This document shows, one piece after another, positions 10,092-38,173 of a stretch of DNA of 64,000 bases. How positions within the stretch are numbered: position 1 is the stretch's first letter; every line of letters begins with the position of its first letter. Under the pieces are notes generated by a model. The model was not told the DNA's origin and ran no database searches. It saw only the letters and a list, made by a program, of their open reading frames with translations. The position numbers and the translations under genes are program-made. This DNA is from Ipomoea triloba (taxonomy: Eukaryota; Streptophyta; Magnoliopsida; Solanales; Convolvulaceae), in the NCBI RefSeq assembly GCF_003576645.1, contig NC_044930.1:16318620-16382619 (forward strand), in the 5' to 3' direction.

Positions 10092-10304
10092 GACCGAGTT
10101 TTGAAGGGCGAACATAGATTGCAAAACTTTGATGACCGAGTTTTGAAGGGCGAACATAGATTGCAAAACTTTGATAAGGATACAAATTGTAAGTATTTCT
10201 TTTATCCTGATTCAATGCAGGATACAAATTGTAAGTATTTCTTTTATCCTGATTCAATGCCGGATACAAATTGTAAGTATTTCTTTTATCCTGATTCAAT
10301 GCCT
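10092..10304. repeat. Exact 42-bp tandem units in noncoding part of element A
   Basis: GACCGAGTTTTGAAGGGCG starts at 10092 and 10134. GATACAAATTGTAAGTATTT starts at 10179, 10221 and 10263. All spacings are exactly 42. The later copy after the N at 11777 has only one unit of the second repeat, which supports an assembly origin. Confidence 0.85.
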
Positions 10305-10476
10305 TGTTTTGGTTTGCTTTATTTTCTAGAATCGTAAATGAAGAGCTGCATAAAATTATTGTGTTGGATATAGTCTGTTTATTAGAACTGTTTTAGCCCA
10401 GTTCACACTTTTAAGTGTGGAAATGGGGCGTGTGTAGAACCCTTAAACATATATCCTTTTTCCCCGCTTCTTATGG

Positions 10477-10496
10477 AAACATCGAGGATGATGTTT
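10477..10496 (+). other. AACATCG-AGGA-TGATGTT hairpin (element A)
   Basis: AAACATCGAGGATGATGTTT can pair over eight positions around AGGA, with one G-U pair next to the loop. Element B has the fully paired form and element C a form with a compensatory change at the base of the stem. An AAGTGTGGAAA word follows within 10 bases in all three. Confidence 0.7.
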
Positions 10497-10988
10497 ATTT
10501 TTAAGTGTGGAAAGGGTGTATGCTTCTTGAAACAGTTGATTGATTAAGTGATAAGGTATAGGAACCTAGAGGGTGTGTTATTGCCAATACTATCCAGAAG
10601 GGCTCCTAACCTTGTGCCAAGGATTGAATGTCTTAAATATGCTTTGGAAGCTTCACTTTGCACGAATTTTCACATTCCGACCCAAATTGAAAAAATTTTG
10701 ATGAGTGCTTGCATGCTTTCACCTTGTATTTTGTTTGGACCTCAGTCAAGGATCTCTCAAAGTGGGAGTGTGAATCCTTTGAGTTTTAGAAAGATAAGAA
10801 TAGCGAAGCCTGGAAACTGAATTAATCTTAGCAGGACATGGGGCAAAAGGTGAGGCTAAGTGAGCTTTGAGTGAAAACAATCCCTAATCCCTAGAAAAAG
10901 GCATGAGGGGTTGATATGGTGAAACGTGAATAAAGGCTTAAGGTCATTCCTAGAGATAAAAGCGAGGTGAGCCATCTTGTCTGGATAA

Positions 10989-11048
10989 GGGGTAACCATT
11001 GCACTGTCCTCGAAAAAGCATGGAGATCCATGTGAAGTTGGTTACCCC
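10989..11048 (+). other. Covarying stem-loop module (element A)
   Basis: GGGGTAACC (10989-10997) pairs perfectly with GGTTACCCC (11040-11048). The enclosed loop holds ATTGCACTG, a CGAAAAAG run and the inner palindrome CATGGAGATCCATG (11019-11032). Element C carries three related modules and B one; both stems show compensatory changes between them. Confidence 0.7.
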
Positions 11049-11776
11049 GAAGAGATCTTGAAAGATGAGAAAATAGAGAGGAGGTGAGCCACTTCGCTAG
11101 GATTCAGGCACCCATTGCACTGACCTTCGAAAAAGCATGGATCTCCAGGAAGTGAGAAAATAGAGTGATCGCCCAAGCCATGGCGATGAGCGGTCCATGT
11201 CCCTGCCCTCACTTATATAATGTAAAGAGGCTTTGGCATTAGGTTGGAAATTGGCTAAGGGGTGAGCATCGGTCCCACTAGTCGGATCGGCTGGAGGCCC
11301 CTAGAAAATACAAGGTGAAAACTCTTTGGTCACTTGCATGCTTAAAGGTGTGAATAAAAACTTCTTATATAGTATCCATCGAGACCTTAACTTCCTTAGC
11401 ATATTTCTTACATTTGGTTGGCATGAGTTTAGCAGTCTTGGTAGATAGTGTAGGGGATTTTACCCGCTCAACTCCGAACACCTACACATCACTTGATTGG
11501 TTAACTGTGAAAGAAAGAACTATCCTTGGTGCTTACATGATTAGGGTTTAGAAAAGTATGCTTGCTTGAGGACAAGGAAGGTTTAAGTGTGGAAACTTTG
11601 ATAAGCACCAAGAATAGCACTTATAAGGGGTCTTTATTAGATTAAAAGCGCATCGTTTTGACATCCGATTACAACAATTGCATGCATTTTAGCTCAAATG
11701 CGATCAAAATCTTCTAACAACATTTCTAGAAAGAGTTTTGAGGTATTTCACAGGTTGGAGAGGGATTTGAGGCTAA

Positions 11777-11777
11777 N
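11777..11777. other. Assembly join (single N)
   Basis: The sequence after the N restarts at the GATTGCAAAACTTTGATAAG text first seen near 10159 and repeats the following 1.5 kb, including the start of the 3' LTR, before running further into the LTR. Confidence 0.85.
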
Positions 11778-13916
11778 GATTGCAAAACTTTGATAAGGAT
11801 ACAAATTGTAAGTATTTCTTTTATCCTGATTCAATGCCTTGTTTTGGTTTGCTTTATTTTCTAGAATCGTAAATGAAGAGCTGCATAAAATTATTGTGTT
11901 GGATATAGTCTGTTTATTAGAACTGTTTTAGCCCAGTTCACACTTTTAAGTGTGGAAATGGGGCGTGTGTAGAACCCTTAAACATATATCCTTTTTCCCC
12001 GCTTCTTATGGAAACATCGAGGATGATGTTTATTTTTAAGTGTGGAAAGGGTGTATGCTTCTTGAAACAGTTGATTGATTAAGTGATAAGGTATAGGAAC
12101 CTAGAGGGTGTGTTATTGCCAATACTATCCAGAAGGGCTCCTAACCTTGTGCCAAGGATTGAATGTCTTAAATATGCTTTGGAAGCTTCACTTTGCACGA
12201 ATTTTCACATTCCGACCCAAATTGAAAAAATTTTGATGAGTGCTTGCATGCTTTCACCTTGTATTTTGTTTGGACCTCAGTCAAGGATCTCTCAAAGTGG
12301 GAGTGTGAATCCTTTGAGTTTTAGAAAGATAAGAATAGCGAAGCCTGGAAACTGAATTAATCTTAGCAGGACATGGGGCAAAAGGTGAGGCTAAGTGAGC
12401 TTTGAGTGAAAACAATCCCTAATCCCTAGAAAAAGGCATGAGGGGTTGATATGGTGAAACGTGAATAAAGGCTTAAGGTCATTCCTAGAGATAAAAGCGA
12501 GGTGAGCCATCTTGTCTGGATAAGGGGTAACCATTGCACTGTCCTCGAAAAAGCATGGAGATCCATGTGAAGTTGGTTACCCCGAAGAGATCTTGAAAGA
12601 TGAGAAAATAGAGAGGAGGTGAGCCACTTCGCTAGGATTCAGGCACCCATTGCACTGACCTTCGAAAAAGCATGGATCTCCAGGAAGTGAGAAAATAGAG
12701 TGATCGCCCAAGCCATGGCGATGAGCGGTCCATGTCCCTGCCCTCACTTATATAATGTAAAGAGGCTTTGGCATTAGGTTGGAAATTGGCTAAGGGGTGA
12801 GCATCGGTCCCACTAGTCGGATCGGCTGGAGGCCCCTAGAAAATACAAGGTGAAAACTCTTTGGTCACTTGCATGCTTAAAGGTGTGAATAAAAACTTCT
12901 TATATAGTATCCATCGAGACCTTAACTTCCTTAGCATATTTCTTACATTTGGTTGGCATGAGTTTAGCAGTCTTGGTAGATAGTGTAGGGGATTTTACCC
13001 GCTCAACTCCGAACACCTACACATCACTTGATTGGTTAACTGTGAAAGAAAGAACTATCCTTGGTGCTTACATGATTAGGGTTTAGAAAAGTATGCTTGC
13101 TTGAGGACAAGGAAGGTTTAAGTGTGGAAACTTTGATAAGCACCAAGAATAGCACTTATAAGGGGTCTTTATTAGATTAAAAGCGCATCGTTTTGACATC
13201 CGATTACAACAATTGCATGCATTTTAGCTCAAATGCGATCAAAATCTTCTAACAACATTTCTAGAAAGAGTTTTGAGGTATTTCACAGGTTGGAGAGGGA
13301 TTTGAGGCTAAAATAGAGCAAAAGACAAACAAGCCGAATTGCAGTAGCGTCCCACGCAGCCTCACACGCGTGTGGCTGGGCGTGGAATAATTCCAATGAG
13401 CTCCCACGCCCACCACCACGCGTGGAAGCAAGCGCGGTCGGGCCAAGGGCCATTTTGGGAAATTTGTTCCCTTTTTGTCACCTATATAAATCCCTTTTGC
13501 CCTAAACCTAAAAGAGAACTAAAATAGATCAGAAAATTCATAGAATAGGGTAGAATAGATCTAGAGGGTTTTCTCCCCTCTTGGGGGAAAATTCCTTTCT
13601 TTCATAGTTTAGAATAGATCAAGGGCAAGAATGAAGATTGAAGATTGGGATTTCAAGATCAAGGTTGTAAAGATCCCCTTTTTAAGGGTGGTAACCATTC
13701 TCTTCAATTTCTAATTCAATACTTGTTTCTTTGAATTTTCCTTTCTTTTTCTTGTTTCTCTTGTATGATAGAGTAGATTAGATAGGGGATTGGTGGCCCC
13801 ATTGTAGATCTATGTGGATGTTTAATATTATTGCTTTGATTTGTGAATTGCTTGTTTGTTGGATGTTGAACTTGTGTGGATGATGATCTTCAAGCTTTGT
13901 GCCTTTTATGGCCACA

Positions 13917-13917
13917 N
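13917..13917. other. Assembly join (single N)
   Basis: Sequence after the N repeats 12409-13916 for about 1.5 kb and then runs on into the rest of the LTR. The three versions of the element A 3' region are therefore probably one locus. Confidence 0.85.
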
Positions 13918-14991
13918 AAAACAATCCCTAATCCCTAGAAAAAGGCATGAGGGGTTGATATGGTGAAACGTGAATAAAGGCTTAAGGTCATTCCTAGAGA
14001 TAAAAGCGAGGTGAGCCATCTTGTCTGGATAAGGGGTAACCATTGCACTGTCCTCGAAAAAGCATGGAGATCCATGTGAAGTTGGTTACCCCGAAGAGAT
14101 CTTGAAAGATGAGAAAATAGAGAGGAGGTGAGCCACTTCGCTAGGATTCAGGCACCCATTGCACTGACCTTCGAAAAAGCATGGATCTCCAGGAAGTGAG
14201 AAAATAGAGTGATCGCCCAAGCCATGGCGATGAGCGGTCCATGTCCCTGCCCTCACTTATATAATGTAAAGAGGCTTTGGCATTAGGTTGGAAATTGGCT
14301 AAGGGGTGAGCATCGGTCCCACTAGTCGGATCGGCTGGAGGCCCCTAGAAAATACAAGGTGAAAACTCTTTGGTCACTTGCATGCTTAAAGGTGTGAATA
14401 AAAACTTCTTATATAGTATCCATCGAGACCTTAACTTCCTTAGCATATTTCTTACATTTGGTTGGCATGAGTTTAGCAGTCTTGGTAGATAGTGTAGGGG
14501 ATTTTACCCGCTCAACTCCGAACACCTACACATCACTTGATTGGTTAACTGTGAAAGAAAGAACTATCCTTGGTGCTTACATGATTAGGGTTTAGAAAAG
14601 TATGCTTGCTTGAGGACAAGGAAGGTTTAAGTGTGGAAACTTTGATAAGCACCAAGAATAGCACTTATAAGGGGTCTTTATTAGATTAAAAGCGCATCGT
14701 TTTGACATCCGATTACAACAATTGCATGCATTTTAGCTCAAATGCGATCAAAATCTTCTAACAACATTTCTAGAAAGAGTTTTGAGGTATTTCACAGGTT
14801 GGAGAGGGATTTGAGGCTAAAATAGAGCAAAAGACAAACAAGCCGAATTGCAGTAGCGTCCCACGCAGCCTCACACGCGTGTGGCTGGGCGTGGAATAAT
14901 TCCAATGAGCTCCCACGCCCACCACCACGCGTGGAAGCAAGCGCGGTCGGGCCAAGGGCCATTTTGGGAAATTTGTTCCCTTTTTGTCACC

Positions 14992-14999
14992 TATATAAA
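14992..14999 (+). promoter_or_regulatory. TATA box of element A LTR
   Basis: CCTATATAAATCCC lies about 42 bases downstream of the palindromic GC-rich cluster. The same spacing is seen in the other Athila-like LTRs of the window. An assembly copy is at 13483-13490. Confidence 0.65.
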
Positions 15000-15177
15000 T
15001 CCCTTTTGCCCTAAACCTAAAAGAGAACTAAAATAGATCAGAAAATTCATAGAATAGGGTAGAATAGATCTAGAGGGTTTTCTCCCCTCTTGGGGGAAAA
15101 TTCCTTTCTTTCATAGTTTAGAATAGATCAAGGGCAAGAATGAAGATTGAAGATTGGGATTTCAAGATCAAGGTTGT

Positions 15178-15680
15178 AAAGATCCCCTTTTTAAGGGTGG
15201 TAACCATTCTCTTCAATTTCTAATTCAATACTTGTTTCTTTGAATTTTCCTTTCTTTTTCTTGTTTCTCTTGTATGATAGAGTAGATTAGATAGGGGATT
15301 GGTGGCCCCATTGTAGATCTATGTGGATGTTTAATATTATTGCTTTGATTTGTGAATTGCTTGTTTGTTGGATGTTGAACTTGTGTGGATGATGATCTTC
15401 AAGCTTTGTGCCTTTTATGGCCACACAAGATCCAAGTCAAGATCCCCCTTTTAAGGGTGGTAACCATTCTCTCAATTTCTAATTCAATACTTGTTTCTTT
15501 GAATTTTCCTTTCTTTTTCTTGTTCTCTAGTATGATAGAGTAGATTAGATAGGGGATTGGCCCCATGGTAGATCTATGTGGATGTTTAATATTATTGCTT
15601 TGATTTGTGAATTGCTTGTTTGTTGGATGTTGAACTTGTGTGGATGATGATCTTCAAGCTTTGTGCCTTTTATGGCCACA
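15178..15680. repeat. Diverged 245-bp tandem duplication inside element A LTR
   Basis: The text from AAGATCCCC to CTTTTATGGCCACA (15178-15425) recurs at 15437-15680 with several small indels and substitutions (TTGGTGGCCCC versus TTGGCCCC, TTGTTTCTCT versus TTGTTCTCT). The differences argue for a real, older duplication, unlike the exact 42-bp repeats elsewhere. Confidence 0.65.
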
Positions 15681-21408: not shown

Positions 21409-22943
21409 TGAAGGGTGTAGTTTTCGCGGTGGATGGAAAGTAATAGGTGGTAAAACGGGAAGAAGTTCCCGAGTATCGTTCTCAAAGGATGGCAAGGAGG
21501 GAATTCAAGCGGTAAGGGGATTAAGCACAAGAGTGTTTAGTGTTTGAAAGCTAACCCAAACATAGGTAAGAAAGGTGCATGAAACATAAGGAAAATAAGG
21601 AACAAACAAAGGAAACAATTAAAGTGGAAAGGAGGATTTGGATATTGCAACTCATATAGGTATCCTTGATTTCCTAAGATACTAGGCTAGCAACACTTAG
21701 ATAATGAAAATGAGGCAAGACAACTATGCCAACGCCACTCTCGTGGTCATTGGCCTATCATCTAGTCCATAGTCCCATTCTCATGGCAACTAGGCTAGGT
21801 GAGGCAAATTATCGAACACATGGTGTGCTATTTGCCTTCCAATCCCCCTTTTCTCAAAGGTGGGAAGGAAACGTGCTAGGCTAGGCTAAGGAGTATCCCT
21901 ACTCTCGTAGGTGAGACTCCTTCTCCAAACACCTCTCATATAGGTTGATCATTCCCACACAAGAGTCAAAGAAGATCACCATTCACACAATCAAACTCAT
22001 AATCAAAGCAATTGCAAAACCTAATTGATCAATTCAAAGCTCAAGAACATCCATAAAACATTGCTCAATCCAAATCCACAAAGATCTATCTAATCATACT
22101 TGAAATTGAAATAGCAAAAGCAAAAGTAATGACAAGAAATTAAAAGGAAGACTTAGCTAGGAATTGAACTTTGAATTTGAACTTGAACTTGAAATTGAAC
22201 TTTAATCTTGAACTTGAATGTAGATCACAATCTTGCAACAATGGAATTCTTCTCTAATTCTAATCTAAACTAAGAATTGCAATGTGGAGTGAATTGGGAA
22301 TGTGGAGTGAATTGGGGGAGATCTCTCTAGGCTAATCCTAGAGAGAGAAATATTCTAAACTGATCTAAAATTGAAGTGTGATGGATCCCCTGAAAAATGG
22401 CTAAATTCCCCTTTTAAATCTCGCCCAACCGCCAATTTTCCGCGCTGGACGCACGGGTGGACGCACGCGCGTCCACTGGGGCGTCCACTGCGCGTCCACT
22501 GCGTTTCTGCTGCGTTTCTGCTGCACAGACTTCAACTTCAGAGAGCTGCTTGGTGGACGCGTGCTGGACGCGCGCGTCCATTGCGCGTCCACAGCAGACT
22601 GCTGTTCTGCTGTGCGAGAATCAGAGAGCGAAAAGTTGGACGCAAGGGTGGACGCACGGTGGACGCGCGTTGGACGCGCGTCCACTGGGGCGTCCACTGG
22701 GCGTCCATGGTGTATTTCGCACTCCAACTTCGACTCGTGAATCCTTCTTCGGAATCTAGCCATTTTCTGCCTTTTTGCCCATCTTTTTACCTACAAAATG
22801 ATTAACCAAGTGTGGAACGGGGTCCAATGGAAATATGAAGCATTCTAATGCAATTTAACACTAAAACATTCATAAAAGCTTTAACTTGTATACTAAACGA
22901 TCCACGAACAACCGTATAAAAGTGGTATATTTTGCACTTATCA
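21409..22943 (-). repeat. 3' LTR of element C (complete)
   Basis: It reads TGATAAGTGCAAAA…CCTTCA on the minus strand. A dense cluster of GGACGC/GCGTCC words at 22441-22708 precedes a TTTAAAAGG TATA-like site at about 22411-22420. It aligns with 28277-29168 with few differences, so insertion was fairly recent. Confidence 0.8.
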
Positions 22944-23407
22944 AACTTTCCACACTTTAAACCTTGCTTGTCCTCAAGCAAGCAATCATAGGACAACCAA
23001 CACAACAAGTGCAAAATATATCACCAAGCTTTAGAAACGCATATGAGCTAGATGGAAGAACAAAGCACAACATTGAAATTAAGGGTTCCTTTATTCTATC
23101 AAAGAAATGTGTCCATAAATGAACCATAAAGTTCAAAAGTGAATATCCTAAGACTTGACACCGTTCTTTTGGTAAAGTAAATTTTCAGTAATAGACTTTG
23201 TTTCACACTTTTCAAGCATGCATACCAAAAGGGAATTCACCAAATATTTTGAAAGGGCCACTAGCCGAGCCAACTAGTGGGAACGATGTGCACAAGTCAA
23301 TGCTAATAGTCCAACCTTATAACCTCAAGCCCCCTAGATTCTAGCGTGATTAACAACAACAAAAAAAAAGCTTCAAGGTTGTCTACTACCCCTCAAGACC
23401 AACCATC

Positions 23408-23466
23408 GGGCTACCCGATCTCACATGGAGCTCCATGCTTTTTCGAGAACTGTGCAATGGGTGCCC
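23408..23466 (-). other. Covarying stem-loop module 1 of element C
   Basis: Plus-strand arms GGGCTACCC (23408-23416) and GGGTGCCC (23459-23466) pair over eight positions with one bulge. The inner palindrome CATGGAGCTCCATG is at 23424-23437. It is the first of three units spaced 111 and 113 bases apart. Confidence 0.65.
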
Positions 23467-23518
23467 GGTCCTAACGGGATAGATCTCTCCTTTTCTCATT
23501 CCCCAAGATAACCTCATC

Positions 23519-23577
23519 GGGCTACCCGACTTCACATGGATCTCCATGCTTTTTCGAAGACGGTGCAATGGGTGCCC
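23519..23577 (-). other. Covarying stem-loop module 2 of element C
   Basis: The arms GGGCTACCC and GGGTGCCC recur at 23519-23527 and 23570-23577, with the inner palindrome CATGGATCTCCATG at 23535-23548. Confidence 0.65.
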
Positions 23578-23631
23578 GAATCTCAGCGGAATGGCTCTCT
23601 TAAATTTTCTCATCTCCCAAGACCTCGTATC

Positions 23632-23691
23632 GGGGCAACCGACTTCACGTGGATCTCCACGCTTTTTCGAAGACAGTGCGATGGTTGCCCC
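23632..23691 (-). other. Covarying stem-loop module 3 of element C
   Basis: The outer arms are GGGGCAACC (23632-23640) and GGTTGCCCC (23683-23691), a perfect 9-bp pairing. The inner palindrome is CGTGGATCTCCACG (23648-23661). Compared with module 2 the inner A-T pair has become G-C on both sides; compared with element A the outer T-A pair has become C-G on both sides. Confidence 0.72.
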
Positions 23692-24174
23692 CAACTTGCC
23701 CTAGCGAGACGGTTCATCTTTTTCATTTCCTAAGGTGGCCACATTGGACTCTTTTGGGGTTTTGGCCTCATTGGGCTCTTTTAAACAAAATAAAGCAAAG
23801 CATCACCTTCACAACCCCACACACCACCTTCGGGAGAGCAAAAACAAAAATTATGTTCATTTCCGGGCTTAGCATATTATCTTTCTAGCATTGGCGAGTG
23901 CACACTCCCACTTCGAGGGATCATTGACTATGGTCCGAACAAAATAGAGGGTGAATTATCATGCAAGCACACAATATAATCAAATTTCAAAAGTGCCAAA
24001 GAGTTCATTTCAAGGGATATTCAACATTGAAATCAATTATTCATTCATAGCAACACATTTCTAAGATAGATTAAACAAAACATTAATTTCAACACCACAC
24101 AAGATTCTATACTAGCATCATATACTTAACCACATTTTAAGCACAAAGTGCTTTCCTTTCCACACTTTAGAAAT

Positions 24175-24194
24175 GAACATCGTCCTCGATGTTC
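24175..24194 (-). other. AACATCG-AGGA-CGATGTT hairpin (element C)
   Basis: On the minus strand GAACATCGAGGACGATGTTC forms an 8-bp stem with an AGGA loop, followed by TAAAGTGTGGAAAGG. The basal pair is G-C where A and B have A-T. A probable assembly copy is at 25965-25984. Confidence 0.72.
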
Positions 24195-24621
24195 GCTCTA
24201 TGCACACGGTGAGAAAGAGATAAGGTCATTCGCCTAGTGCAATGCCCTTTCCACACTTTAAAAGTGGGCTATGGGCTAGGAGGATCACAACATTGCTTTT
24301 ATGAAAGACTTTTAACAACATACACTATAATACCAAACAACCCCGGGTTTCCACACTTTAGAACGAAAGCATATAGGTAATGAAAAATAAGTAAGGGAGA
24401 TAAAGAGACTCCCCTTGTTGCTTCTCTTAGAGTTCCTTGACTTTGATCATGGTGGGAAAGGCATAACCTCTTAGCTTTGAGCCATTTATCAATTTTCCTA
24501 CACCATCAACAAACACATTGCAATACTACAAACCATATTAGAGAATTTAACTTCCATTAATGCAAAACTTATTGAAAGCACAAGTAAACAACAAAAACAA
24601 AATGCATAAAAATGTAAGATA

Positions 24622-24673
24622 ACCTCGGGTTGCCTCCCGAGAAGCGCTCCGTTTAACGTCCGTAGCCCGACGC
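24622..24673 (-). other. Conserved GGGAGGCAACCC block (element C)
   Basis: On the minus strand the block contains GGACGTTAAACGGAGCGCTT and then CTCGGGAGGCAACCCGAG, a 6-bp stem around AGGCAA. The TAA inside GTTAAAC is the stop codon of the gag-like frame, so the motif straddles the end of the coding region. The copy at 26412-26463 is a probable assembly duplicate. Confidence 0.7.
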
Positions 24674-25226
24674 AACTTTCAAACCTTCATTCCAACACAC
24701 TTGGACGGGGACAAGTCCTTTTGCCCCATCCACTCTTTCCTCACGATATGCCCTCAAGTGCCGGGCATTGATAAACTCCTTTAATTCTATTAATAGCATA
24801 CTCTCTTCCAAAGGTTTGCAACTATCCACGTCCATGAGTATGCTATTCTCTTCCGAATTTCCTCTTTTTTCATTTTTCTTCTTTTCACCAAACTCCTTTT
24901 CATCATTTCTCACTTTATACTCAACTTCCTCCTTTACACTCTCATCTCTTGTCTTTTCCTTCTCCTCTTCTATGATTTTGCCATGAACTTCCTCAAACAA
25001 CACCTTCTTATTTTCAAAATTTTCTTCTTCATTTTCCTTTTCTATAGTCACACTCTCCTCAACCTCCTCTTTTTCACTACTTAACAACACATCCATTAAA
25101 TCTCCATCCGTTTCCTCTTTTTCTTCTCCAAGCAAATCATGAATATATATAGCATCATCAAGGCAATTATCATGGAAAGTGTCAAATTCAACATCATTTA
25201 AATCAAGCAAACTAGCATCAACATTC

Positions 25227-25227
25227 N
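25227..25227. other. Assembly join (single N)
   Basis: Sequence after this N repeats 23438 onward with an offset of 1,790 bases, including the 185-codon C-terminal part of the gag-like gene, before continuing into new gene sequence. Confidence 0.85.
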
Positions 25228-26442
25228 CTTTTTCGAGAACTGTGCAATGGGTGCCCGGTCCTAACGGGATAGATCTCTCCTTTTCTCATTCCCCAAGATA
25301 ACCTCATCGGGCTACCCGACTTCACATGGATCTCCATGCTTTTTCGAAGACGGTGCAATGGGTGCCCGAATCTCAGCGGAATGGCTCTCTTAAATTTTCT
25401 CATCTCCCAAGACCTCGTATCGGGGCAACCGACTTCACGTGGATCTCCACGCTTTTTCGAAGACAGTGCGATGGTTGCCCCCAACTTGCCCTAGCGAGAC
25501 GGTTCATCTTTTTCATTTCCTAAGGTGGCCACATTGGACTCTTTTGGGGTTTTGGCCTCATTGGGCTCTTTTAAACAAAATAAAGCAAAGCATCACCTTC
25601 ACAACCCCACACACCACCTTCGGGAGAGCAAAAACAAAAATTATGTTCATTTCCGGGCTTAGCATATTATCTTTCTAGCATTGGCGAGTGCACACTCCCA
25701 CTTCGAGGGATCATTGACTATGGTCCGAACAAAATAGAGGGTGAATTATCATGCAAGCACACAATATAATCAAATTTCAAAAGTGCCAAAGAGTTCATTT
25801 CAAGGGATATTCAACATTGAAATCAATTATTCATTCATAGCAACACATTTCTAAGATAGATTAAACAAAACATTAATTTCAACACCACACAAGATTCTAT
25901 ACTAGCATCATATACTTAACCACATTTTAAGCACAAAGTGCTTTCCTTTCCACACTTTAGAAATGAACATCGTCCTCGATGTTCGCTCTATGCACACGGT
26001 GAGAAAGAGATAAGGTCATTCGCCTAGTGCAATGCCCTTTCCACACTTTAAAAGTGGGCTATGGGCTAGGAGGATCACAACATTGCTTTTATGAAAGACT
26101 TTTAACAACATACACTATAATACCAAACAACCCCGGGTTTCCACACTTTAGAACGAAAGCATATAGGTAATGAAAAATAAGTAAGGGAGATAAAGAGACT
26201 CCCCTTGTTGCTTCTCTTAGAGTTCCTTGACTTTGATCATGGTGGGAAAGGCATAACCTCTTAGCTTTGAGCCATTTATCAATTTTCCTACACCATCAAC
26301 AAACACATTGCAATACTACAAACCATATTAGAGAATTTAACTTCCATTAATGCAAAACTTATTGAAAGCACAAGTAAACAACAAAAACAAAATGCATAAA
26401 AATGTAAGATAACCTCGGGTTGCCTCCCGAGAAGCGCTCCGT

Positions 26443-28287
26443 TTAACGTCCGTAGCCCGACGCAACTTTCAAACCTTCATTCCAACACACTTGGACGGGG
26501 ACAAGTCCTTTTGCCCCATCCACTCTTTCCTCACGATATGCCCTCAAGTGCCGGGCATTGATAAACTCCTTTAATTCTATTAATAGCATACTCTCTTCCA
26601 AAGGTTTGCAACTATCCACGTCCATGAGTATGCTATTCTCTTCCGAATTTCCTCTTTTTTCATTTTTCTTCTTTTCACCAAACTCCTTTTCATCATTTCT
26701 CACTTTATACTCAACTTCCTCCTTTACACTCTCATCTCTTGTCTTTTCCTTCTCCTCTTCTATGATTTTGCCATGAACTTCCTCAAACAACACCTTCTTA
26801 TTTTCAAAATTTTCTTCTTCATTTTCCTTTTCTATAGTCACACTCTCCTCAACCTCCTCTTTTTCACTACTTAACAACACATCCATTAAATCTCCATCCG
26901 TTTCCTCTTTTTCTTCTCCAAGCAAATCATGAATATATATAGCATCATCAAGGCAATTATCATGGAAAGTGTCAAATTCAACATCATTTAAATCAAGCAA
27001 ACTAGCATCAACATCAAATTCAACATCATTTAAATCAAGCAAACTAGCATCAACATTCAATTCAACATCATTTAAATCAAGCAAACTAGCATCAACATTC
27101 AATTCAACATCATTTAAATCAAGCAAACTAGCATCAACATTCAATTCACCATCAACATTACAAAGCATATCATGCAATTCACCAACATGTTCATTTAACA
27201 AAGAATTATCATCAAAAGTAAACAACTCAAGGCCATCATTATCATTAGAATTNTGGAAAGTGTCAAATTCAACATCATTTAAATCAAGCAAACTAGCATC
27301 AACATTCAATTCACCATCAACATTACAAAGCATATCATGCAATTCACCAACATGTTCATTTAACAAAGAATTATCATCAAAAGTAAACAACTCAAGGCCA
27401 TCATTATCATTAGAATTAAAAGAATTATTTTCACAAGTATCAACACAATTTTCATCATCATCATCGAAGGAGTCAAATGAATCACTATCATTAAAGTCAT
27501 AAGGGTTAAGAAAATTGACTTCATTATCAACACCTTCAATTATGCAATTATTTTCACTAGGCATATCTACCACTTTTTCAACTCCATTATCAACACAATC
27601 AATATTAGAATTATCAAAATGAATAGGCACACCAATATCATCACAATCATCATTCTCATCACACATGTTGGCCCAAGATTTAGAAATTTTATCACCAAGA
27701 GTAGTGCTAACACTAATAGGGTCAAGTGTCTTACCATATGCAAGCTCAATGTTTTCTTCTTTGTCTTTAACATCTTCTTTAGGCTCTTCTTCCTCTATGA
27801 CATCTCCTTGTGATCTCTCGGCCAATGCCTTGGAGTTTTGAGCTACTTGTGTTTCCAAGTTCCTTATTGAAGCATGACTCTCTTGTCTAAAATTTGAGAC
27901 ATCTTTCCTTATAGTGGAGAATTCTTGCCTAAAGTCTTGTTTCCACTCTTGACTTATGTTGGCCATTTCTTGCCTAAGCTCACCAAACATCCTTACCATT
28001 TTGTCCTCAAAACTTTCCGTAGGAGCCTCATCCATTGGTGGTGGCTTTCTTGGTTGATATTGTGCTCTATAATCCTCATCATCTTCATAACGATAGGGGT
28101 TAGAATGTTGACCATTATATTCTTCTTGTGAAGATCCATATGCCCTTGAGTAGGGTTGTTCATAGTCCTCATAATCTCTATAACCATAGGGGTTAGAAAC
28201 TTGAGCATTATAGCCTCCCCTTGGTTGCCTATATCCATAAAAACATTGCTCAATCCAAATCACAAAGATCTCTTCTACATTGCTCAA
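26443..28287 (-). CDS. Gag-like protein of element C, 5' end replaced by LTR
   Basis: The frame is open for 614 codons across an N at 27253. The first 15 or so residues read through LTR sequence, so the genuine start is missing. Tyr/Gly/Gln-rich repeats (about residues 18-75) are followed by a coiled-coil stretch with MVRMFGELRQEMANI, FRQEFSTIRKDV and NLETQVAQNSKAL, comparable in layout to the end of the element B gag. The rest is strongly acidic (Asp/Asn- then Glu/Lys-rich). Three extra 14-residue units around DASLLDLNDVE are exact 42-bp duplications and the N join repeats a further stretch, so the true protein is shorter. No protease, polymerase or zinc knuckle is seen. Confidence 0.6.
   Translation of the reverse strand: MSNVEEIFVIWIEQCFYGYRQPRGGYNAQVSNPYGYRDYEDYEQPYSRAYGSSQEEYNGQHSNPYRYEDDEDYRAQYQPRKPPPMDEAPTESFEDKMVRMFGELRQEMANISQEWKQDFRQEFSTIRKDVSNFRQESHASIRNLETQVAQNSKALAERSQGDVIEEEEPKEDVKDKEENIELAYGKTLDPISVSTTLGDKISKSWANMCDENDDCDDIGVPIHFDNSNIDCVDNGVEKVVDMPSENNCIIEGVDNEVNFLNPYDFNDSDSFDSFDDDDENCVDTCENNSFNSNDNDGLELFTFDDNSLLNEHVGELHDMLCNVDGELNVDASLLDLNDVEFDTFXNSNDNDGLELFTFDDNSLLNEHVGELHDMLCNVDGELNVDASLLDLNDVELNVDASLLDLNDVELNVDASLLDLNDVEFDVDASLLDLNDVEFDTFHDNCLDDAIYIHDLLGEEKEETDGDLMDVLLSSEKEEVEESVTIEKENEEENFENKKVLFEEVHGKIIEEEKEKTRDESVKEEVEYKVRNDEKEFGEKKKNEKRGNSEENSILMDVDSCKPLEESMLLIELKEFINARHLRAYREERVDGAKGLVPVQVCWNEGLKVASGYGR
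27001..27140. repeat. Exact 42-bp tandem units in element C gag-like gene
   Basis: ACTAGCATCAACAT begins at 27001, 27043, 27085 and 27127. After the N at 27253 the same region is given with a single unit, so the array is probably an assembly artefact. Confidence 0.8.
27253..27253. other. Assembly join (single N)
   Basis: The text after the N restarts at TGGAAAGTGTCAAATTC, first seen at 26963, and repeats the sequence up to the join with fewer 42-bp units. Confidence 0.85.
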
Positions 28288-29168
28288 TCCAAATCCACAA
28301 AGATCTATCTAATCATACTTGAAATTGAAATAGCAAAAGCAAAAGTAATGACAAGAAATTAAAAGGAAGACTTAGCTAGGAATTGAACTTTGAATTGAAC
28401 TTGAACTTGAAATTGAACTTTAATCTTGAACTTGAATGTAGATCACAATCTTGCAACAATGGAATTCTTCTCTAATTCTAATCTAAACTAAGAATTGCAA
28501 TGTGGAGTGAATTGGGAATGTGGAGTGAATTGGGGGAGATCTCTCTAGGCTAATCCTAGAGAGAGAAATATTCTAAACTGATCTAAAATTGAAGTGTGAT
28601 GGATCCCCTGAAAAATGGCTCAATTCTCCTTTTAAATCTCGCCCAACCGCCAATTTTCCGCGATGGACGCACGGGTGGACGCACGCTGGACGCGTGTCCA
28701 CTGGGGCGTCCACTGCGCGTCCACTGCGTTTCTGCTGCGTTTCTGCTGCACAGACTTCAACTTCAGAGAGCTGCTTGGTGGACGCGTGCTGGACGCGCGC
28801 GTCCACTGCGCGTCCACAGCAGACTGCTGTTCTGCTGTGCGAGAATCAGAGAGCGAAAAGTTGGACGCAAGGGTGGACGCATGGTGGACGCGCGTTGGAC
28901 GCGCGTCCACTAGGGCGTCCACTGGGCGTCCATGGTGTATTTCGCACTCCAACTTCGACTCGTGAATCCTTCTTCGAAATCTAGCCATTTTCTGCCTTTT
29001 TGCCCATCTTTTTACCTACAAAATGATTAACCAAATGTGGAACGGGGTCCAATGGCAATATGAAGCATTCTAATGCAATTTAACACTAAAACATTCATAA
29101 AAGCTTTAACTTGTATACTAAACGATCCACGAACAACCGTATAAAAGTGGTATCTTTTGCACTTATCA
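28277..29168 (-). repeat. 5' LTR of element C (3' part deleted)
   Basis: It aligns with the first 890 bases of the complete LTR at 21409-22943, including the GGACGC word cluster (28661-28930) and the TTTAAA TATA-like site (about 28630). Homology ends in a short duplicated stretch (28240-28306, ATTGCTCAATCCAAATC twice, 33 bases apart), then gag-like sequence begins. Confidence 0.75.
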
Positions 29169-30585: not shown

Positions 30586-31229
30586 TTATTTATAGGGTAA
30601 CACTTGTGTGAGACCGTCTCACGGGTCTCAATCCGTGAGACGGGTCGGGTCACATAATTTGAGTCATTTATGAATTAGTTCTGTTTGGGCTATTTTTTTA
30701 ACAATCAGATATGGGCTTTTTTTTAATTCATTTTATCAATTTTTGGTTCCGAATTTCGCGATTCTTGAGTTCTTCACGCACGAACTATCCGAGCAGTAGA
30801 GACGCGAGTTCCCCTCCACTTTTTCATCTAATTTTCAAATTTTCTCTTCACAAAGGTGGATTATATTCACAATCTCAGGTGAGTTTTTGTTTTTGATAGT
30901 TTTAATGTGTAAAATTTGCTAGGGTTTTGCTATTAAACTCCAATTCTTCCATTTCTCGCGGCACACTCCGATTCTTCCGTTTCTCGCCATCGCCATTAAA
31001 ACAAGAATTTTTGCATTTGCAGTAAGTTGGATTGTGTTTGCAGAGGAATTTCACCACTGGCAGCTATACTCTCCGTTTGCATCATAAAGTATTAGATTTA
31101 ATGCTTTAAGTGTTGAGTATTCATTTTTGCTATGAAGTAGTATATTTGTGCTATTATGTATTGTGTTTGCTGGTTAAAGTGTTGATTATTCATTTGTAGT
31201 ATGAAGTAGTATATTTGGACTATTAAGTA

Positions 31230-31486
31230 CTACCTCCGTCCCAAAATGGTTGTCTGATTCGTTTAACGAGGCTTGACTGAAGTAATTTGTAATTCAATTT
31301 TTCACAATATTACGTTTAGCATTAATATTTAAAATTTATATATTTAGAAACTACATTAAAAGTACTATTAAACACAAAAAATTAAATTTAAAAATAAAAA
31401 AAATTACTAAAGAAAATAAGCAAAGAAGAAATAGTTGGTTTGACCAATGAATAGTAAATAGGACAGGTAAAATGGGACAGAGGGAG
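31230..31486. mobile_element. Stowaway-type MITE
   Basis: The 257-base element starts CTACCTCCGTCCCAAAATGG and ends CCATTTT…GGGACAGAGGGAG in inverted relation, with TA on both sides (31228-31229, 31487-31488). This is the classic Tc1/mariner-derived Stowaway terminus. It lies inside one unit of the degenerate repeat array. Confidence 0.8.
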
Positions 31487-32071
31487 TATTAGATTTAATG
31501 TTGTAAGTGCTGGTTATTCATTTGTGCAATTAAGATGTATATTTGCTCTATAAAGTATTGTGTTTGATGGTTAAAGTCATATATGATCATTCATTTGTGA
31601 TATAAAGTAGTATATTTGCACCATAAAGTATTAGATTTAATGCTTTAAGTGTTGAGTATTCATTTTTGCTATGAAGTAGTATATTTGTGCTATTATGTAT
31701 TGTGTTTGATGGTTAAGTGTTGATTATTCATTTGTAATATGAAGTAGTATATTCGGGCTATTAAGTATTAGATCTAATGTTTAATTGTTGGTTATTCATC
31801 ATTTGTGTAATTAAGAAGTATATTTGCTCTATAAAGTATTGTGTTTGATGGTTAAAGTCATGATCATTCATTTGTGATATAAAGTAGTATATTTGCACCA
31901 TAAGAGTTATTCTTGGGTCATAGTTGCTTTGGAAAATATTAATTTTAATTTCCTTTTGGAACATAGCAACTGAGCTGTCTATTCCCTTCATAGTTTGCCC
32001 CAACGCTGGCCAATGGTTCTCTTTAAATTTTGGTGGACACTGTACTGCTGATTATGAAAATATATTTCTAA

Positions 32072-33201
32072 ATGATTACATATGACCAAGATCCTGATGT
32101 GGTTAGGTGGGATCTCCAGCTATTTGACGGTGATCCATATTCTAACTACTATGGTTGCTCCATCACCGTACCCAAAGTAGTCCAGATTATTATCAAGATC
32201 ACTACTTTAAAAAAAGTATTTATACTCTAGCTTCTAGCCTGGAAAACAATGAGTACAATGCATGCGCTCTTGGGGAAGAACTATCACAGCTCTCAGTTGT
32301 TGAACCCCATTCAGACATCCATCTAGTGATAGATCATACACAAACACCCTATTATTCTAAGGGATGGTTTAGTCAACCTATGGGTAGCTATATATATATA
32401 TATATATATATATATTTGGTAATGAAAGTGACTCAAATTTGAAACCATATTTGTTTGTGTCATTTCCATTACTGTTATAATCACACTATTCATATTATAN
32501 GTCAACCTATGGGTAGCTATATATATATATATATATATATATATTTGGTAATGAAAGTGACTCAAATTTGAAACCATATTTGTTTGTGTCATTTCCATTA
32601 CTGTTATAATCACACTCATATTTGTTTGTGTCATTTCCATTACTGTTATAATCACACTATTCATATTATAATTTGTATGAGATGAGAATGGTGAAGAAGA
32701 AACAACTAATGTTGGACCATCCAGTTCATGTCCTAGTCCTCGAGAAGGGTCATACTCTGAGGAGGAGTGGTCTTATTCTCTTGAATTATTGGATGAATAT
32801 GATCTTGATGGTGAAGTAGGGAAAAGGTTGAACCGGATCAGATGGTTCTTATTCCAATAAGTGTGCACCTTTATATTGGTATGCATGGCTAGAAAGACTA
32901 TAATTTGGGGTTACTTTCCTTTTGAAAATCATTTCAGTACGACTAGAATACATGTAATCATGTTGGATGAGCTTATTAGTGAATGCATTTTGCAATCGTG
33001 TTCCTTGCCTTGATGATCAATATATGCAAAATTACTAAAATTATATGTCAGGTACTGATTTACTGATGTTCTGCATCCTCAAATTTGCATTCCACTGATC
33101 AATTTCTTTTTCATGTTTGCAACATATTCCTAAAATTAATGGGGAAATACCATCAATTGATGAGGCTACTTTAGATCATCAAAGGCTCTTGAACAAGTAT
33201 T
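32072..33201 (+). pseudogene. Captured OTU-domain deubiquitinase gene fragment (N-terminal exons)
   Basis: The pieces in order match the N-terminal part of plant OTU9-12-type deubiquitinases: MITYDQDPDVVRWDLQLFDG (from 32072), ENNEYNACALGEELSQL (frame of 32155-32395), SYSEEEWSYSLELLDEY and DLDGEVGKRLNRI (32681-32850), and KINGEIPSIDEATLDHQRLL (33130-33190). Intron-like sequence with a TA microsatellite separates the second and third pieces. A frameshift near 32158, the loss of the catalytic OTU domain and the setting inside the MULE make it a captured pseudogene fragment. Identification rests on recognition of the conserved text. Confidence 0.72.
32500..32500. other. Assembly join (single N) at a TA microsatellite
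   Basis: Sequence after the N repeats 32372-32499, including the TA run. An exact 42-bp duplication (TGTTTGTGTCATTTCC at 32581 and 32623) follows. Confidence 0.85.
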
Positions 33202-33942
33202 CTTCTGTTACTTTCCTGGAAATTGTGTTGAAGTTCACATAAATCTGGAAACATATATGAATAATTTCTATTAATAGCAAATAATAAAGTCTACGAAATG
33301 TGTAAGTTCACAAATTTGAAGCATGTATGAATAATTCCTATTAATAGAAAATAATAAAGTCTCCGTTATTAAGAGGTATATTTGCTCTATAAAGTATTGT
33401 GTTTCATGGTTAAATTCATGATCATTCATTTGTGATATAAATTAGTATATTTGCACCATAAAGTATTAGATTTAATTCTTTAAGTGTTGAGTATTCATTT
33501 TTGCTATGAAGTAGTATATATGTGCTATTAACTATTGTGTTTGATGGTTAAGTGTTGATTATTCATTTGTAATATGAAGTAGTATATTCGGGCTATTAAG
33601 TATTAGATCTAATGTTTAATTGTTGGTTATTCATCATTTGTGTAATTAAGAAGTATATTTGCTCTATAAAGTATTGTGTTTGATGGTTAAAGTCATGATC
33701 ATTCATTTGTGATATAAACTAGTATATTTGCATCATAAAGTATTAGCTAGATTTAATGTTTTAAGGGTTGACTATTCATTTTTGGTATGAAGTAGTATAT
33801 TTGTGTTATTAAGTATTGTTTTTTATGGTTAAAGTGTTGAGTATTCATTTGTGTTATACAGTACTAGTTTTAACCTATTAAATATTACATTTAATGGTTA
33901 AAGTGTTGACTATTCATTTGTGTTTTAAAGTACTAGTTTAGG

Positions 33943-35276
33943 TGATAAGACTCCGAGATACCCTTATTTTAGGCACATTTTAGGGTGTTTTATCGCGTCT
34001 ATAGCATCCTTATTCGGTAAATGATGTGCGTAAATGCTTGAAAATCACTAACTGATGCACAAAAGCTATTTTTAGCTTAAAAGAAGTAAAACAGGAGCCC
34101 CGGGAGCATATAGGACCAAAAGATGAGCTTAAAGAGCAAACCAGGCAAAAGCGGAGCCCCGGAGGACCAATCTGGAAGGCCACACGCGTGTGAGCAAGCG
34201 TGGAAACTTTCCAGAAGCTCCCCACGCATGCTCACACGCGTGTGAGAGGCGTGGAGGCGTGATGCGCGAATTTCAGCTAGGGTTGTCATTTCGGAGACTA
34301 TTTAAACCCCTTTGATGAATTTCCAGAAGAGGATTTCCAGAATTTTAGTTTTCCTTTTCTTGGTTTTTCTTTGGAGAGTTTTCTCCATTTTTCTTAGTTT
34401 TTAGATTAGATCAATACTCCATTGTAGAAGACATCAAGTTTGGATTGAAGATCTTCTTCTCTCTAGGTGATCTCTATTTCATTTCTATAATTTTAGCTAT
34501 CTTGTTCTTGGATTGAATTAGCTTTTACTTTCATTTCATATCATGAGTAGCTAATTTAGTCTAGGGATTTGGATTGTGTGATTGAATATTGCTTTTGTGA
34601 TGATCTTATTTTTATATCTTAAATCTATGAGTTTGTGTTGATGGATTATTTATTATTGTCTTTTGATTGTTGTTTTGATGAGATCTTGTTTGGATTTGTC
34701 CAATCTAGATGAGAGATTGAACTCTTGACTCTTTCATGTCTTTGATTAGAGTTAGGATTTGAAGCTTTACACAATCAAAGTTCCTATGGACTTCTTAAGA
34801 ATAGTAGGATAGTGTGTAGCTTAAGTGTTTGATAAAATTCCTCTTAGAACTTTGGATGCTTGAAGGCACTCCTAAGTCAAAGAAGCCTTAGTACACAAGG
34901 TGGAAAAGGAGTTAAAGGACTAAGACAACACACTCTTGAATAGACAATATCCTAGCAATCCTAATCCTTGACCTTAGACTCTCACAATGCAATATTCATG
35001 AACACTACCCAATCCCTACCCCTTTTACATATTTCGAAAACCACTTTTATTTCAATACTCTCTTGCACTCACAACCAATCAATGAGCTACACTCTCACTT
35101 GCAATTCCACCCTTCACCACACTCAAATCCTATGCATAACTCCATCTAGTAAACTACCGAATGTTTGACACACCTCCACGTCCCTCCTTCGAGACCGACA
35201 CTCGGGGAGTCACAGACTTTTCGTTTTAACATAAATATCTTTTGACGAATCAACCCCACACAATACTGCTTCACCA
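33943..35276 (+). repeat. 5' LTR of element B
   Basis: 1,334 bases, TGATAAG…CTTCACCA, very similar to the 3' copy. A palindromic word cluster (CACACGCGTGTG, CCCACGC) lies at 34186-34262 and a TATTTAAAC TATA-like site at about 34299-34307. Confidence 0.88.
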
Positions 35277-35279
35277 AAA

Positions 35280-35297
35280 TGGCGCCGTTGCCGGGGA
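35280..35297 (+). other. Primer binding site, tRNA-Asp type
   Basis: TGGCGCCGTTGCCGGGGA begins three bases after the LTR end. It is the sequence complementary to the 3' end of plant tRNA-Asp that is typical of Athila/Tat elements (established). Confidence 0.9.
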
Positions 35298-35476
35298 GGG
35301 CAATATGTTGTCATATGTTTTTGTTTACTTTGATTGCATGAATGCTAGATTTGAGAAATGTTAATCCATTCCACTTAATTTTGATTTTTATTATTACTTG
35401 TGTTTGCTACTAACCCAATTGACTACTTCTAGTCAATTGTGGAAATTATCTTTTCATTGATAATTTTACTAGATGA

Positions 35477-38094
35477 ATGCACACGAGAGCAAAAGGAAAT
35501 CAAGGTTTACTACCCTACATTCCTGAAATTAATAGAGCAACTAGAAGGAAAAATACCCAAGGATCACTAATGGCTTCATCAAGCGCAACAAGAAACCCAC
35601 AAGGAAGAGGCACAGCAGTACCAAATCCACCCCAGTTCCAATCAATCCACAAGTACCGATTAACCATGAGGAACCAATTATTGAAGAACCGCAAGCTAAC
35701 AGAGCAAATAATCAAGAGAACATTCGTGAAGAGGAATATTATGGAAACCCTCAAGAACCACAAAGATCAATTGCAGATTACATGACTCCGGATTTTAACA
35801 TGCACAACTCGATCTATGTACCTCCAATGGAGAATGTCAACTTTCACGTGCATCCGACTATACTCACACTAGTTCAAAACAGTCAATACTTGGGATTACC
35901 ATCTGAGGATCCCAACGCGCACATCACAAGATTTATACGAGCATGTGGGATGTACAGACAGGAAGGCATTAGCGAGGAAATAGTTCGACTAAAATTATTC
36001 CCATTCTCAGTTATAGGAGAGGCAGCACGATGGTTGGAAAGCCAAGACGACAATCATTTCAGAACGTGGCAGCAGTTGCACCGTGAATTCATGAACGAGT
36101 TCTTTCCCGTTACAAAAACTATGAGGATTAGAAGACTGATACAGGAATTCAAGCAAGGAAGACTTGAAAGTTTGGGAGAGGCTTGGCGAAGATTTAAAGT
36201 TCTTAAGAGGCAATCCCACAAGATCTGATACACCCATGGGACATGATTAGCTCATTCTATGGAGGGTTAACAGATGAAGGAAAAATGTCTCTTGACTCAT
36301 CTTCCAGCGGTGCCTTTGTCTCTCTAGCTTTGCAAGAGGCTGAGGAACTAATTGAGAGAATATCTAAAAACACATCCTGTTGGTATGAACGAAGAGGAGA
36401 TCATGGAGGAATTTATGAAGTTGATAATCGAGTNGAAGAGGAGATCATGGAGGAATTTATGAAGTTGATAATCGAGTGGCGAGTGAGGCCAAAATAGAAG
36501 CAATGAATCACGAAATCAAAAAGCTAAAAGCTATGGTAGAAAAAATGGAAGGAAAGCCCAAGCCTTGCATGGCATTGGCACTTTATTGTAATATCTGTGG
36601 AGGACCTCATGACACCAATATTTGCACTTCTACGTCTGCATCTGAACAAGTTGAGGCGGTAGATTATCAAAGGAACTCCAACTTCAATGCTTATGGACAA
36701 AACCAAAGATCAAACAACAATTGGAAACAGGGAGAGGGTTGGAACAATAGCCACAATGACGGATATCAAGCGCAAAGACAATACAATTATGGACAGAAGC
36801 CTGCATATGGACAAAATGACAAGAACAGACTGATGTACAATCAAAACCAAGGAAATGGAAATCAAATGACCCAGTTCAGGCCACAATACGACTCTCAACT
36901 TGATTTTACTCAACAAAGAAGGGATGACATCCGTGAGGTAGATGAAAGACTTACAAGGACGATCATGGAACTCAAAAATGATCGGGCAAATCTGAAACAA
37001 GAAATTACTCAAGAGATTAGGCAAGAAATTTCTAGTCTTCGCCAATAGTCGAAGGCTACACTAAAGACAATTGAGAATCAAATCTCTCAGATGTTTAAGA
37101 TGATGTCAGATCGACACTACGGACAACTCCCGAGCAACACTGAAAACAACCCAAAAGAGAGAGTCAACGCCATTGATGCCAAAGAAGAAACACATGAGAA
37201 ATGTGATCCAATGGATGCTATCTGTGGAACTTGCCAATGTAAGGTAGACAACCAAAGAGACAAGACTACCTCTTGTAGTCTTAATCTTGAATTAAAAAAT
37301 GCAAACAGCTCGTGCACCATATCAATGAAGGAACGCAAGGAGGAAACCACTTCGGAAGAATGCCCGAAAGAAAAGGAAATACCAAGAGACACTATCAAAA
37401 GCTTAGAAGAGAAAGAAACAGCTCGAGAAGGTAAATTTAAAGCTTTTATTCGAAAATTATTCAATAGCAAAGAATGCCGTGAGTTGTTTGAGAGTGACAT
37501 TTGTGATAACTTTACATGTTTAAGCCAAGAATCTTCGGCTTGTTTGACTGAGGGAAACCCCAGAAAGAAGGGTGACCCTAGAGCTTTGTTAATTCCTTAT
37601 TCTATACAGAACATGGAACCTAGAAACGCTCTTGCAGATCTTGGAGCTTCAATCAATGTCATGTCTCTAAATCTTTTTGAAAAATTGAACCTACCACGTT
37701 TGAAACCGACGAGGCTAACTCTACGTTTGGCTGACGGAACCACCCGGTATCCTGAAGGCTTAGCGGAAGATGTTCTAGTAAGAATAGGAAAATTTCTTGT
37801 GCCTGTCGATTTTATTGTCTGTAAAATGGGAGATGATGAACCCCATGAATCCTAAATTCTTCGAAGACCATTTCTGGCTACTTGTCGTGCACGAATAGAT
37901 GTTAGTTCAGGTGAAATTACCCTGAGATTCGAAGGACAAGCCACGAATGATGACAAGGAGAAGGAAAAAGAAGGAGCTGATGACGATGAAAGGGCAAAGG
38001 TCAAATCAAAAGTGAAACCAAAACCGAAGCGGAGGAGCGATAAGCTTACATGGAAAAACACGTGGGTACCAAAATGCTTTCTACCCACTACCAA
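35477..38094 (+). pseudogene. Gag-protease gene of element B (broken)
   Basis: The gag core (AARWLESQDDNHFRTWQQL, FMNEFFPVTKTMRI, ESLGEAWRRFKVL) is the retrotransposon gag domain. A degenerate CCHC knuckle, CNICGGPHDTNIC, follows near 36590, then a Gln/Asn-rich coiled coil. An aspartic protease with DLGAS and ADGTTRYPEG lies at about 37630-37830. Frameshifts near 35630 and 36210, a TAG at 37046-37048 and a TAA at 37853-37855 break it. Downstream, the basic tail ends at about 38094 and the GGGAGGCAACCC block follows, with no polymerase. An N at 36434 with a 43-bp repeat and an N at 38405 with a 1.97-kb repeat are probably assembly errors. Confidence 0.82.
36434..36434. other. Assembly join (single N) with 43-bp repeat
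   Basis: The 43 bases before the N (36391-36433) recur immediately after it. Removing the N and one copy restores the reading frame of gag, which supports an artefact. Confidence 0.88.
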
Positions 38095-38127
38095 AGAATA
38101 TGGTTGAATTCAAACCAAGGTATGATG

Positions 38128-38173
38128 CGTCTAGCCAATGACGTAAACCGTGGCGCTACTTGGGAGGCAACCC
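38128..38173 (+). other. Conserved GGGAGGCAACCC block (element B)
   Basis: GTCTAGCCAATGACGTAAACC and GGCGCTACTTGGGAGGCAACCC match the element A and C blocks. CTTGGG and CCCAGG can pair (one G-U) around AGGCAA. It follows the end of the gag-protease gene. The copy at 40099-40144 is in the repeated segment. Confidence 0.7.

Follow-up and report, generated by a model that had tools for sequence, protein, structure and literature searches.

Three Athila-like elements (A, B and C) in a 64,000-nucleotide stretch of the Ipomoea triloba genome (NC_044930.1, positions 16,318,620 to 16,382,619; the window, numbered here from its first letter) carry stem-loop modules in their 3′ noncoding part. The locus raises the question whether these modules are kept as structures and, if so, as which molecule and for which task. 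A sequence-only reading had cited two paired changes as a sign of selection on structure and had suggested a cis role of the RNA. All sequences cited there were found in the window, and the modules with their stems, loops and positions are real. Element C (− strand) carries three of them at the reported spacings of 111 and 113 bases: C3 (23611–23711, type 1, full hairpin of 101 nt), which is the 5′-most in element sense, C2 (23497–23593, type 2, 97 nt) and C1 (23387–23481, type 2, 95 nt). The array spans 23387–23711, and 15 and 17 nt separate the neighbouring hairpins. As described before, element A (+ strand) has one intact module (A1, 10973–11067, type 1, 95 nt) and a truncated one (A2, 11090–11154), in which an internal deletion removed the 3′ arms of the outer, middle and inner basal stems and left the outermost CACTTC/GAAGTG. 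Element B (+ strand) contains an intact module (B1, 43953–44051, type 2, 99 nt) and a decayed one, which an alignment shows as a remnant upstream of it. The independent modules in the window are five intact ones and A2. A 28-base module pattern with up to three mismatches matched four times in the window, three times within one triplicated stretch, and in none of 100 shuffles.

One module is a single hairpin of about 95–101 nt with 32 pairs (the five intact ones in the window span 95–101 nt), built from a basal stem of 13 pairs and an outer, a middle and an apical stem. In element sense the core runs from the outer stem through the AUUGCACNG loop, the middle stem and the GAAAAAGC bulge to the apical stem. 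Both unpaired motifs are conserved and sit on the 5′ side of the hairpin, and the 3′-side unpaired stretch between basal and outer stems is variable in the type-2 and type-1 alignments. The loop motifs are 97% conserved compared to 60–64% in the flanks, the loop figure being inflated by the search pattern. The layout of two stems and a loop given originally was correct but incomplete: the middle stem and the basal stem had been overlooked, and the coordinates were too short. The basal stem was exposed by folding the whole C array and by flank comparison.

The outer stem reads GGGGTAACC/GGTTACCCC in A1 and GGGGCAACC/GGTTGCCCC in C3, and the inner one CATGGA/TCCATG in most modules and CGTGGA/TCCACG in C3, both as first noted. 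The middle stem is CUUC/GAAG in B1, C2 and C3 and UCUC/GAGA in C1. Basal arms are CACUUC-G-CUAGGAU / AUCCUAG-GAAGUG in one family, CAUUCC-G-CUGAGAU / AUCUUGG-GGAAUG in C2 and CAUCUU.. / ..AAGAUG in A1. Between native basal arms the mean pairing energy is −13.0 kcal/mol and between swapped arms −9.25 kcal/mol (97 distinct arm pairs; none of 5000 permutations reaches the native value), in a statistic that ignores descent. Predicted lone folds of C1 and A1 depart in detail from the common model.

The window holds nine single N's, and long blocks that are 100% identical to their neighbours adjoin or cross them (6572–7826, 10262–11776, 23438–25224, 36432–38404 and their copies). The exact or nearly exact duplications of 1.2–2.0 kb span 6572–9109, 10262–15428, 23438–27014 and 36432–40375; among them are exact duplications inside element B (1.97 kb, 36432–38404/38403–40375) and inside element C (1.79 kb, 23438–25224/25228–27014). 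Because of the exact identity and the adjoining single N's, they are probably assembly duplications, that is, gap-filling artefacts. Extra module copies at about 12.5, 14.0 and 25.3 kb fall within 100% identical blocks beside single N's, and the window tests treat no module within a duplicated copy as independent.

A pattern fixing the loops only gave 777 + 755 = 1,532 matches in the I. triloba assembly (462 Mb, 17 contigs), any duplicated assembly stretches included; the reversed pattern as control gave 0. Our module sample comprised the first 100 listed of the 1,532 matches (chromosomes 1 and 2), eight loci, four longer stretches and the window. In this sample 209 hits merged by position into 124 distinct modules, and 105 of these have all three core helices largely intact (at least 8/9, 3/4 and 4/5 pairs). 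A stricter module filter, which lost 16 sequences including some genuine modules, was left unused. Arrays in the sample hold one to four modules. The 81 distinct arrays comprise 34 lone type-2 modules, 27 of the order 1-2, 15 of the order 1-2-2, two lone type-1 modules and one each of 1-2-2-2, 2-2 and 1-1. One type-1 module followed by only type-2 modules is thus found in 43 of 45 multi-module arrays of the sample, and type 1 lies 5′ of type 2 in every mixed array seen. One sequence, L016:2331-2446, is a natural chimera with a type-2 5′ outer arm, a type-1 3′ arm and a mismatched outer stem, and probably arose by recombination within an array.

Across the five intact modules of the window, both sides have changed in 7 of 19 pairs, and one of 95 cells is non-canonical, the other 94 being paired. 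The register used here was chosen by the analyst, omits a constantly unpaired U-U/C-U position and allows one bulged base in B1, C1 and C2. Exchange of 3′ halves among the modules, which is free of register, left the native arrangement as the best of 120 permutations, and swaps always fold worse in sum. For larger sets we aligned 42 type-2 rows (39 of 40 representatives and three window modules; omission of the chimera slightly favours structure) and 24 type-1 rows (22 of 24 representatives, the re-cut A1 and C3, with the truncated A2 omitted). In type 2, 94.6% of 1,333 cells are paired, compared to 31–46% in registers slid by 1–3, and 98 cells changed on both sides compared to 33.2 with 3′ letters shuffled (0 of 500 reach this). 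In type 1, 94.0% of 768 cells are paired (slid registers 37–50%), with 68 cells changed on both sides compared to 22.0 shuffled (0 of 500). Counted by pairs, 17 of 32 changed on both sides in type 1 compared to 8.7 shuffled (0 of 500), and in type 2 the 15 of 32 were not above the shuffles (12.8; 79 of 500). Further pair types did not exceed the shuffles in type 2 (39 compared to 38.0; 189 of 500) or in type 1 (32 compared to 30.2; 90 of 500). The basal stem has ten pairs changed on both sides in either type; for types 2 and 1, respectively, the outer stem has 3 and 5, the middle stem 2 and 0 and the apical stem 0 and 2. A further alignment (32 of 47 representatives and three more rows) was 95.6% paired, with 33 double cells compared to 11.0 (0 of 500); its five pairs changed on both sides did not exceed the shuffles (3.9; 115 of 500).

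Since letter shuffles ignore descent, we wrote a tree-based null in which the substitutions retain their number and type on each branch and in each column class. Paired cells exceed it in type 2 (1,261 compared to a mean of 1,124 and a maximum of 1,177; 0 of 400) and in type 1 (722 compared to a mean of 578 and a maximum of 660; 0 of 400), and so does the summed covariation (0 of 400 in each type). Among the 124 cores, 16 double events lead from one Watson–Crick pair to another, compared to a null mean of 4.1 and a maximum of 11 in 400 runs. Nulls attain the observed paired cells of the cores in 1, 0 and 1 of 1000 cases for the outer, middle and apical stem and in none for the sum, and none of 400 reaches the kept-minus-broken changes on inner branches.

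The check proposed with the original claim, run as a home-made equivalent of R-scape, gave a divided answer: the set beats every null, but single pairs hardly stand out. When every column pair was scored (home-made G-test with average-product correction), no structure pair of the 72-nt core fell at E<0.05 (best 10-57, E=3.15, and 35-46, E=3.67), and the highest rank went to columns 57-60, which are not a base pair. For the full hairpin 1 of 64 did so (type 1, 71-78, E=0.01), the next best being 1.3, 1.37, 3.14 and 3.48. With structure pairs only counted, 2 of 24 in the core and 5 of 64 in the full hairpin lie below 0.05. Single pairs have little power because the shared history is shallow and each pair offers few independent changes. 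The covariation supports the structure as a whole, within one genome, rather than single pairs, and the claim of selection on structure, first built on two paired changes, is supported by a far larger number of them.

Neutral tandem repeats might also show paired changes if template switches during replication or reverse transcription correct one arm to match the other (quasipalindrome correction). In one survey, tandem repeats between pol and the 3′ LTR were present in about half of active Retand elements (PMC11963269), and the adjacent two-base change that distinguishes C1 from C2 in both middle arms could have come from a single event. Such correction should, however, erase irregularities that in fact persist across the alignments: the bulged G, the type-2 bulged base, the one-sided loops and the U-U mismatch. 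The core changes are also scattered over helices and clades, and the raised share of G·U described below would be unexpected, so that we regard neutral repeats as unlikely. A coding explanation was rejected: stops occur in all sense frames across the A modules, and the C spacings of 111 and 113 shift the frame. Stops are nevertheless missing from one sense frame across the B module, and over the C array one sense frame stays open for 104 codons. This C frame is spanned by two database proteins, one on an ENA contig and one on a JGI contig, which indicates that further copies of the C array exist.

Selection on the sense RNA would tolerate G·U more than A·C, which is not so for DNA or antisense RNA. 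The G·U share of all G·U and A·C cells was 0.722 in type 2 compared to 0.563 in the null and 0.746 in type 1 compared to 0.533 (0 of 1000 nulls with the same substitution types in each case); this measure was picked after the difference of G·U minus A·C had failed to exceed the nulls (213 and 104 of 400). Both kinds of cell are rarer than in the nulls, with 96 G·U and 37 A·C compared to 217 and 156 in type 2, and 50 and 17 compared to 95 and 75 in type 1. The core-only result was borderline (28 and 62 of 400 nulls), and a Fisher test of inner against outer branches gave p=0.002 but depends on ties (median 0.02, 95th percentile 0.10). Since G·U is over-represented relative to A·C among the deviating cells, the sense RNA is favoured as the selected molecule, which is supported, not proved.

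This bears on inverted repeats that would act as DNA, as protein-binding palindromes or cruciforms influencing transcription in the manner of Sirevirus LTR motifs. The cores are palindromic, and Sireviruses likewise have conserved palindromes in noncoding parts of plant LTR elements, which their authors tied to transcriptional activators (PMC2829016). However, the modules keep their pairing while the sequence changes, their arms pair across about 100 nt, the G·U share lies above the nulls, and they are internal, outside the LTR. Sireviruses are Ty1/copia elements with CGG-CCG palindromes in the LTRs and multiple polypurine tracts, and the relevant sections of that paper describe no covarying hairpin of about 100 nt (PMC2829016). 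With their internal position and CATGGAGCTCCATG-like palindromes the modules do not answer to the Sirevirus description. A role at the DNA level is therefore very unlikely.

Plant miRNA precursors contain a near-perfect duplex of about 21 nt. In the predicted folds of the modules bulges and one-sided loops leave no such duplex (by eye); the longest helix has 13 pairs with a bulged base and is followed by an internal loop of 1–2 versus about 8 nt. Processing of the hairpins to miRNA- or siRNA-like RNAs, as first proposed for Athila6 (miR854/siRNA854), would have a precedent in siRNA854, which Athila6 yields and which was first predicted from a stem-loop (PMC3276544). The purine-rich spacer between modules slightly resembles the siRNA854 21-mer (local score 12), but the ORF stretch 9461–9510 gives an equal score, and homology is unconvincing. 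We consider such a source of small RNAs highly improbable. Least probable is a genome dimerisation signal, in which two genomic RNAs would first make kissing or duplex contact through the apical palindrome (AUGGAGCUCCAU, present in many modules), as the central dinucleotide is self-complementary in 60 of 124 modules (GA and TC account for 58) and the predicted apical loop has just 4 nt.

We return to the reading of the modules as an RNA hairpin in the genomic RNA and to the elements that carry it. Element B (33943–45839, +) is bounded by LTRs at 33943–35276 and 44515–45839 (97.4% identical); its ORFs match gag, a protease-like domain and ATHILA ORF-1, with no RT match in the ORFs examined. A primer binding site, TGGCGCCGTTGCCGGGGA, follows its 5′ LTR and is one that we take to be typical of Athila/Tat; a shorter form of it was not found in the module-bearing sequences L099–L102. 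Element C (22024–29168, −; LTRs 28245–29168 and 22024–22943, 96.7% identical) has a single long acidic ORF that matches nothing in Pfam and part of which is matched by an I. triloba database protein, and no RT match was found in its two ORFs of at least 150 aa. The 3′ LTR of element A starts near 11,600, and self-comparison of the window revealed no 5′ LTR for it. L102 shows RNase H pieces followed by a zinc-binding domain and an rve integrase that ends about 1.0 kb before the module; this is the Ty3/gypsy order, in one element, and because copies nearby are rearranged a nested insertion may be involved. The ORFs examined in L100 and L101 had no Pfam match, and an RT domain match was obtained from no module-bearing element. 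ATHILA ORF-1 (PF03078) was matched in element B (8.6e-08) and in an ORF of L099 that ends about 1.8 kb before the module (1.9e-10); it is absent from the two element C ORFs examined and was present in only 16% of Athila elements in one survey (PMC6317226). As part of the best explanation as a whole, the modules likely belong to a group of Athila-like Ty3/gypsy elements and lie in the 3′ noncoding part of their genomic RNA.

Several further observations were made on these elements and their surroundings. The long ORF of element C contains 42-base tandem repeats (26933–27417, −) that encode 14-residue acidic repeats. The protease-like ORF of element B (37049–37852, +) has a sub-threshold match to MT-A70, an RNA methyltransferase domain (21.4 bits, cut-off 23.9). 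Repeats of 69/73 bases flank element B (31013–33987 and 45845–46026), and since they lie on both sides the element may have inserted into a repeat array. Elsewhere in the window, the AT-rich stretch 1770–4611 (+) looks like the remnant of an endogenous pararetrovirus, its first ORF matching a caulimovirus-type protease (Peptidase_A3), reverse transcriptase and RNase H. The stretches 48950–50599 (+) and 62245–63963 (+) contain remnants of Ty1/copia reverse transcriptase, and DUF4283 followed by a sub-threshold zinc knuckle.

Beside the 3′ LTR a second hairpin, CUUGCUU-GAGGAC-AAGCAAG, was found in element B (44476–44495, +), in element C (22963–22982, −) and, with one mismatch, in element A (11561–11580, +). 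In all three it directly precedes the polypurine tract and the LTR start TTTGATAAG. In L102 it reads TTGCTC-GTGGAT-GAGCAA, a paired change, and the LTR starts behind the hairpin are of at least seven kinds (counted by eye). Among arrays with long flanks 18 of 23 have it downstream and 21 of 23 a conserved AAGTGGGAGTGTG block upstream. The distance from the array end is 461–502 nt in 16 of 18 measured arrays, with hits at most 20 bases apart merged; these counts and distances, like the neighbourhood of L102, drew on an earlier list of 195 entries that held shifted duplicates. A candidate additional hairpin occurs 3′ of the modules in A- and B-type families (44065–44086, +; 11168–11187, +), with a paired change between ACCGC..GCGGT in B and ATCGCC..GGCGAT in A, and is gapped out in C-type copies. 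A block GTGCACATCGTTCCCACTAGT..GGCTAG.GGCCC is conserved between modules and 3′ LTR (44160–44200, +; 23250–23295, −), and part of it pairs with the polypurine-tract region in alignment folding.

Taken together, we consider it likely that the modules form an RNA hairpin in the 3′ noncoding genomic RNA that is presented to a protein for packaging or export. The conserved loops on the 5′ side and the tandem copies suggest a protein platform on the genomic RNA. The fold would present the AUUGCACNG and GAAAAAGC motifs to a trans-acting protein, either the element's own Gag/nucleocapsid or a host export adaptor, and tandem copies would raise avidity. Full-length RNA of autonomous and non-autonomous copies could thereby be picked for packaging, our first choice, or for nuclear export. 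The cis role suggested earlier is plausible because B and C, in which no RT was found, keep the modules and because L102 has one close to RNase H and integrase; dimerisation, named with it, is not favoured. Packaging is ranked first since elements without detected RT keep the module. Export or stability may come second, by analogy with the CTE, RTE, MTE and DR elements of retroviruses and retrotransposons.

Structured cis elements of this kind are known. The fold of the constitutive transport element (CTE) differs from that of the modules, and Rfam gave no gathering match in the window; for 23300–23800 the only hit up to E=10 was RF00236, a plasmid antisense RNA, at E=9.9. Searched viral contigs contained no related stretch. 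The CTE of MPMV, the RTE of IAP and the MTE of musD export unspliced retro-element RNA (PMC3856414, PMC12786077). The direct repeats (DR) of Rous sarcoma virus, 115-nt cis elements flanking v-src, were proposed as transport elements for unspliced RNA, and reports of what they do to packaging, Gag expression, stability and cytoplasmic RNA contradict one another (PMC3856414). They resemble the modules in being repeated cis elements of similar length, but belong to a different virus group, whereas here the copies are in tandem, of two types and with a covarying fold. Repeats of Retand/Tat elements occupy the same part, from pol to the 3′ LTR, and are arrayed like the modules, but are described as family-specific, and the paper nowhere uses the words hairpin, stem-loop or secondary structure (PMC11963269). 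Our literature search, covering titles and the beginnings of abstracts, revealed no family of covarying hairpins, in tandem and of two types, in Athila-like elements of plants, and module sequence words led to no paper.

A compact hairpin with fixed loops, which has 1,532 pattern matches and is kept without detected RT, offers a defined RNA for binding tests with Gag or export factors. More tentatively, and with somewhat less than even confidence, the modules may be a plant counterpart of retroviral packaging and transport elements: a new structured RNA family of two types, common to autonomous and non-autonomous Athila-like elements, that would mark the genomic RNA for packaging or export and allow defective copies to draw on the machinery of intact elements.
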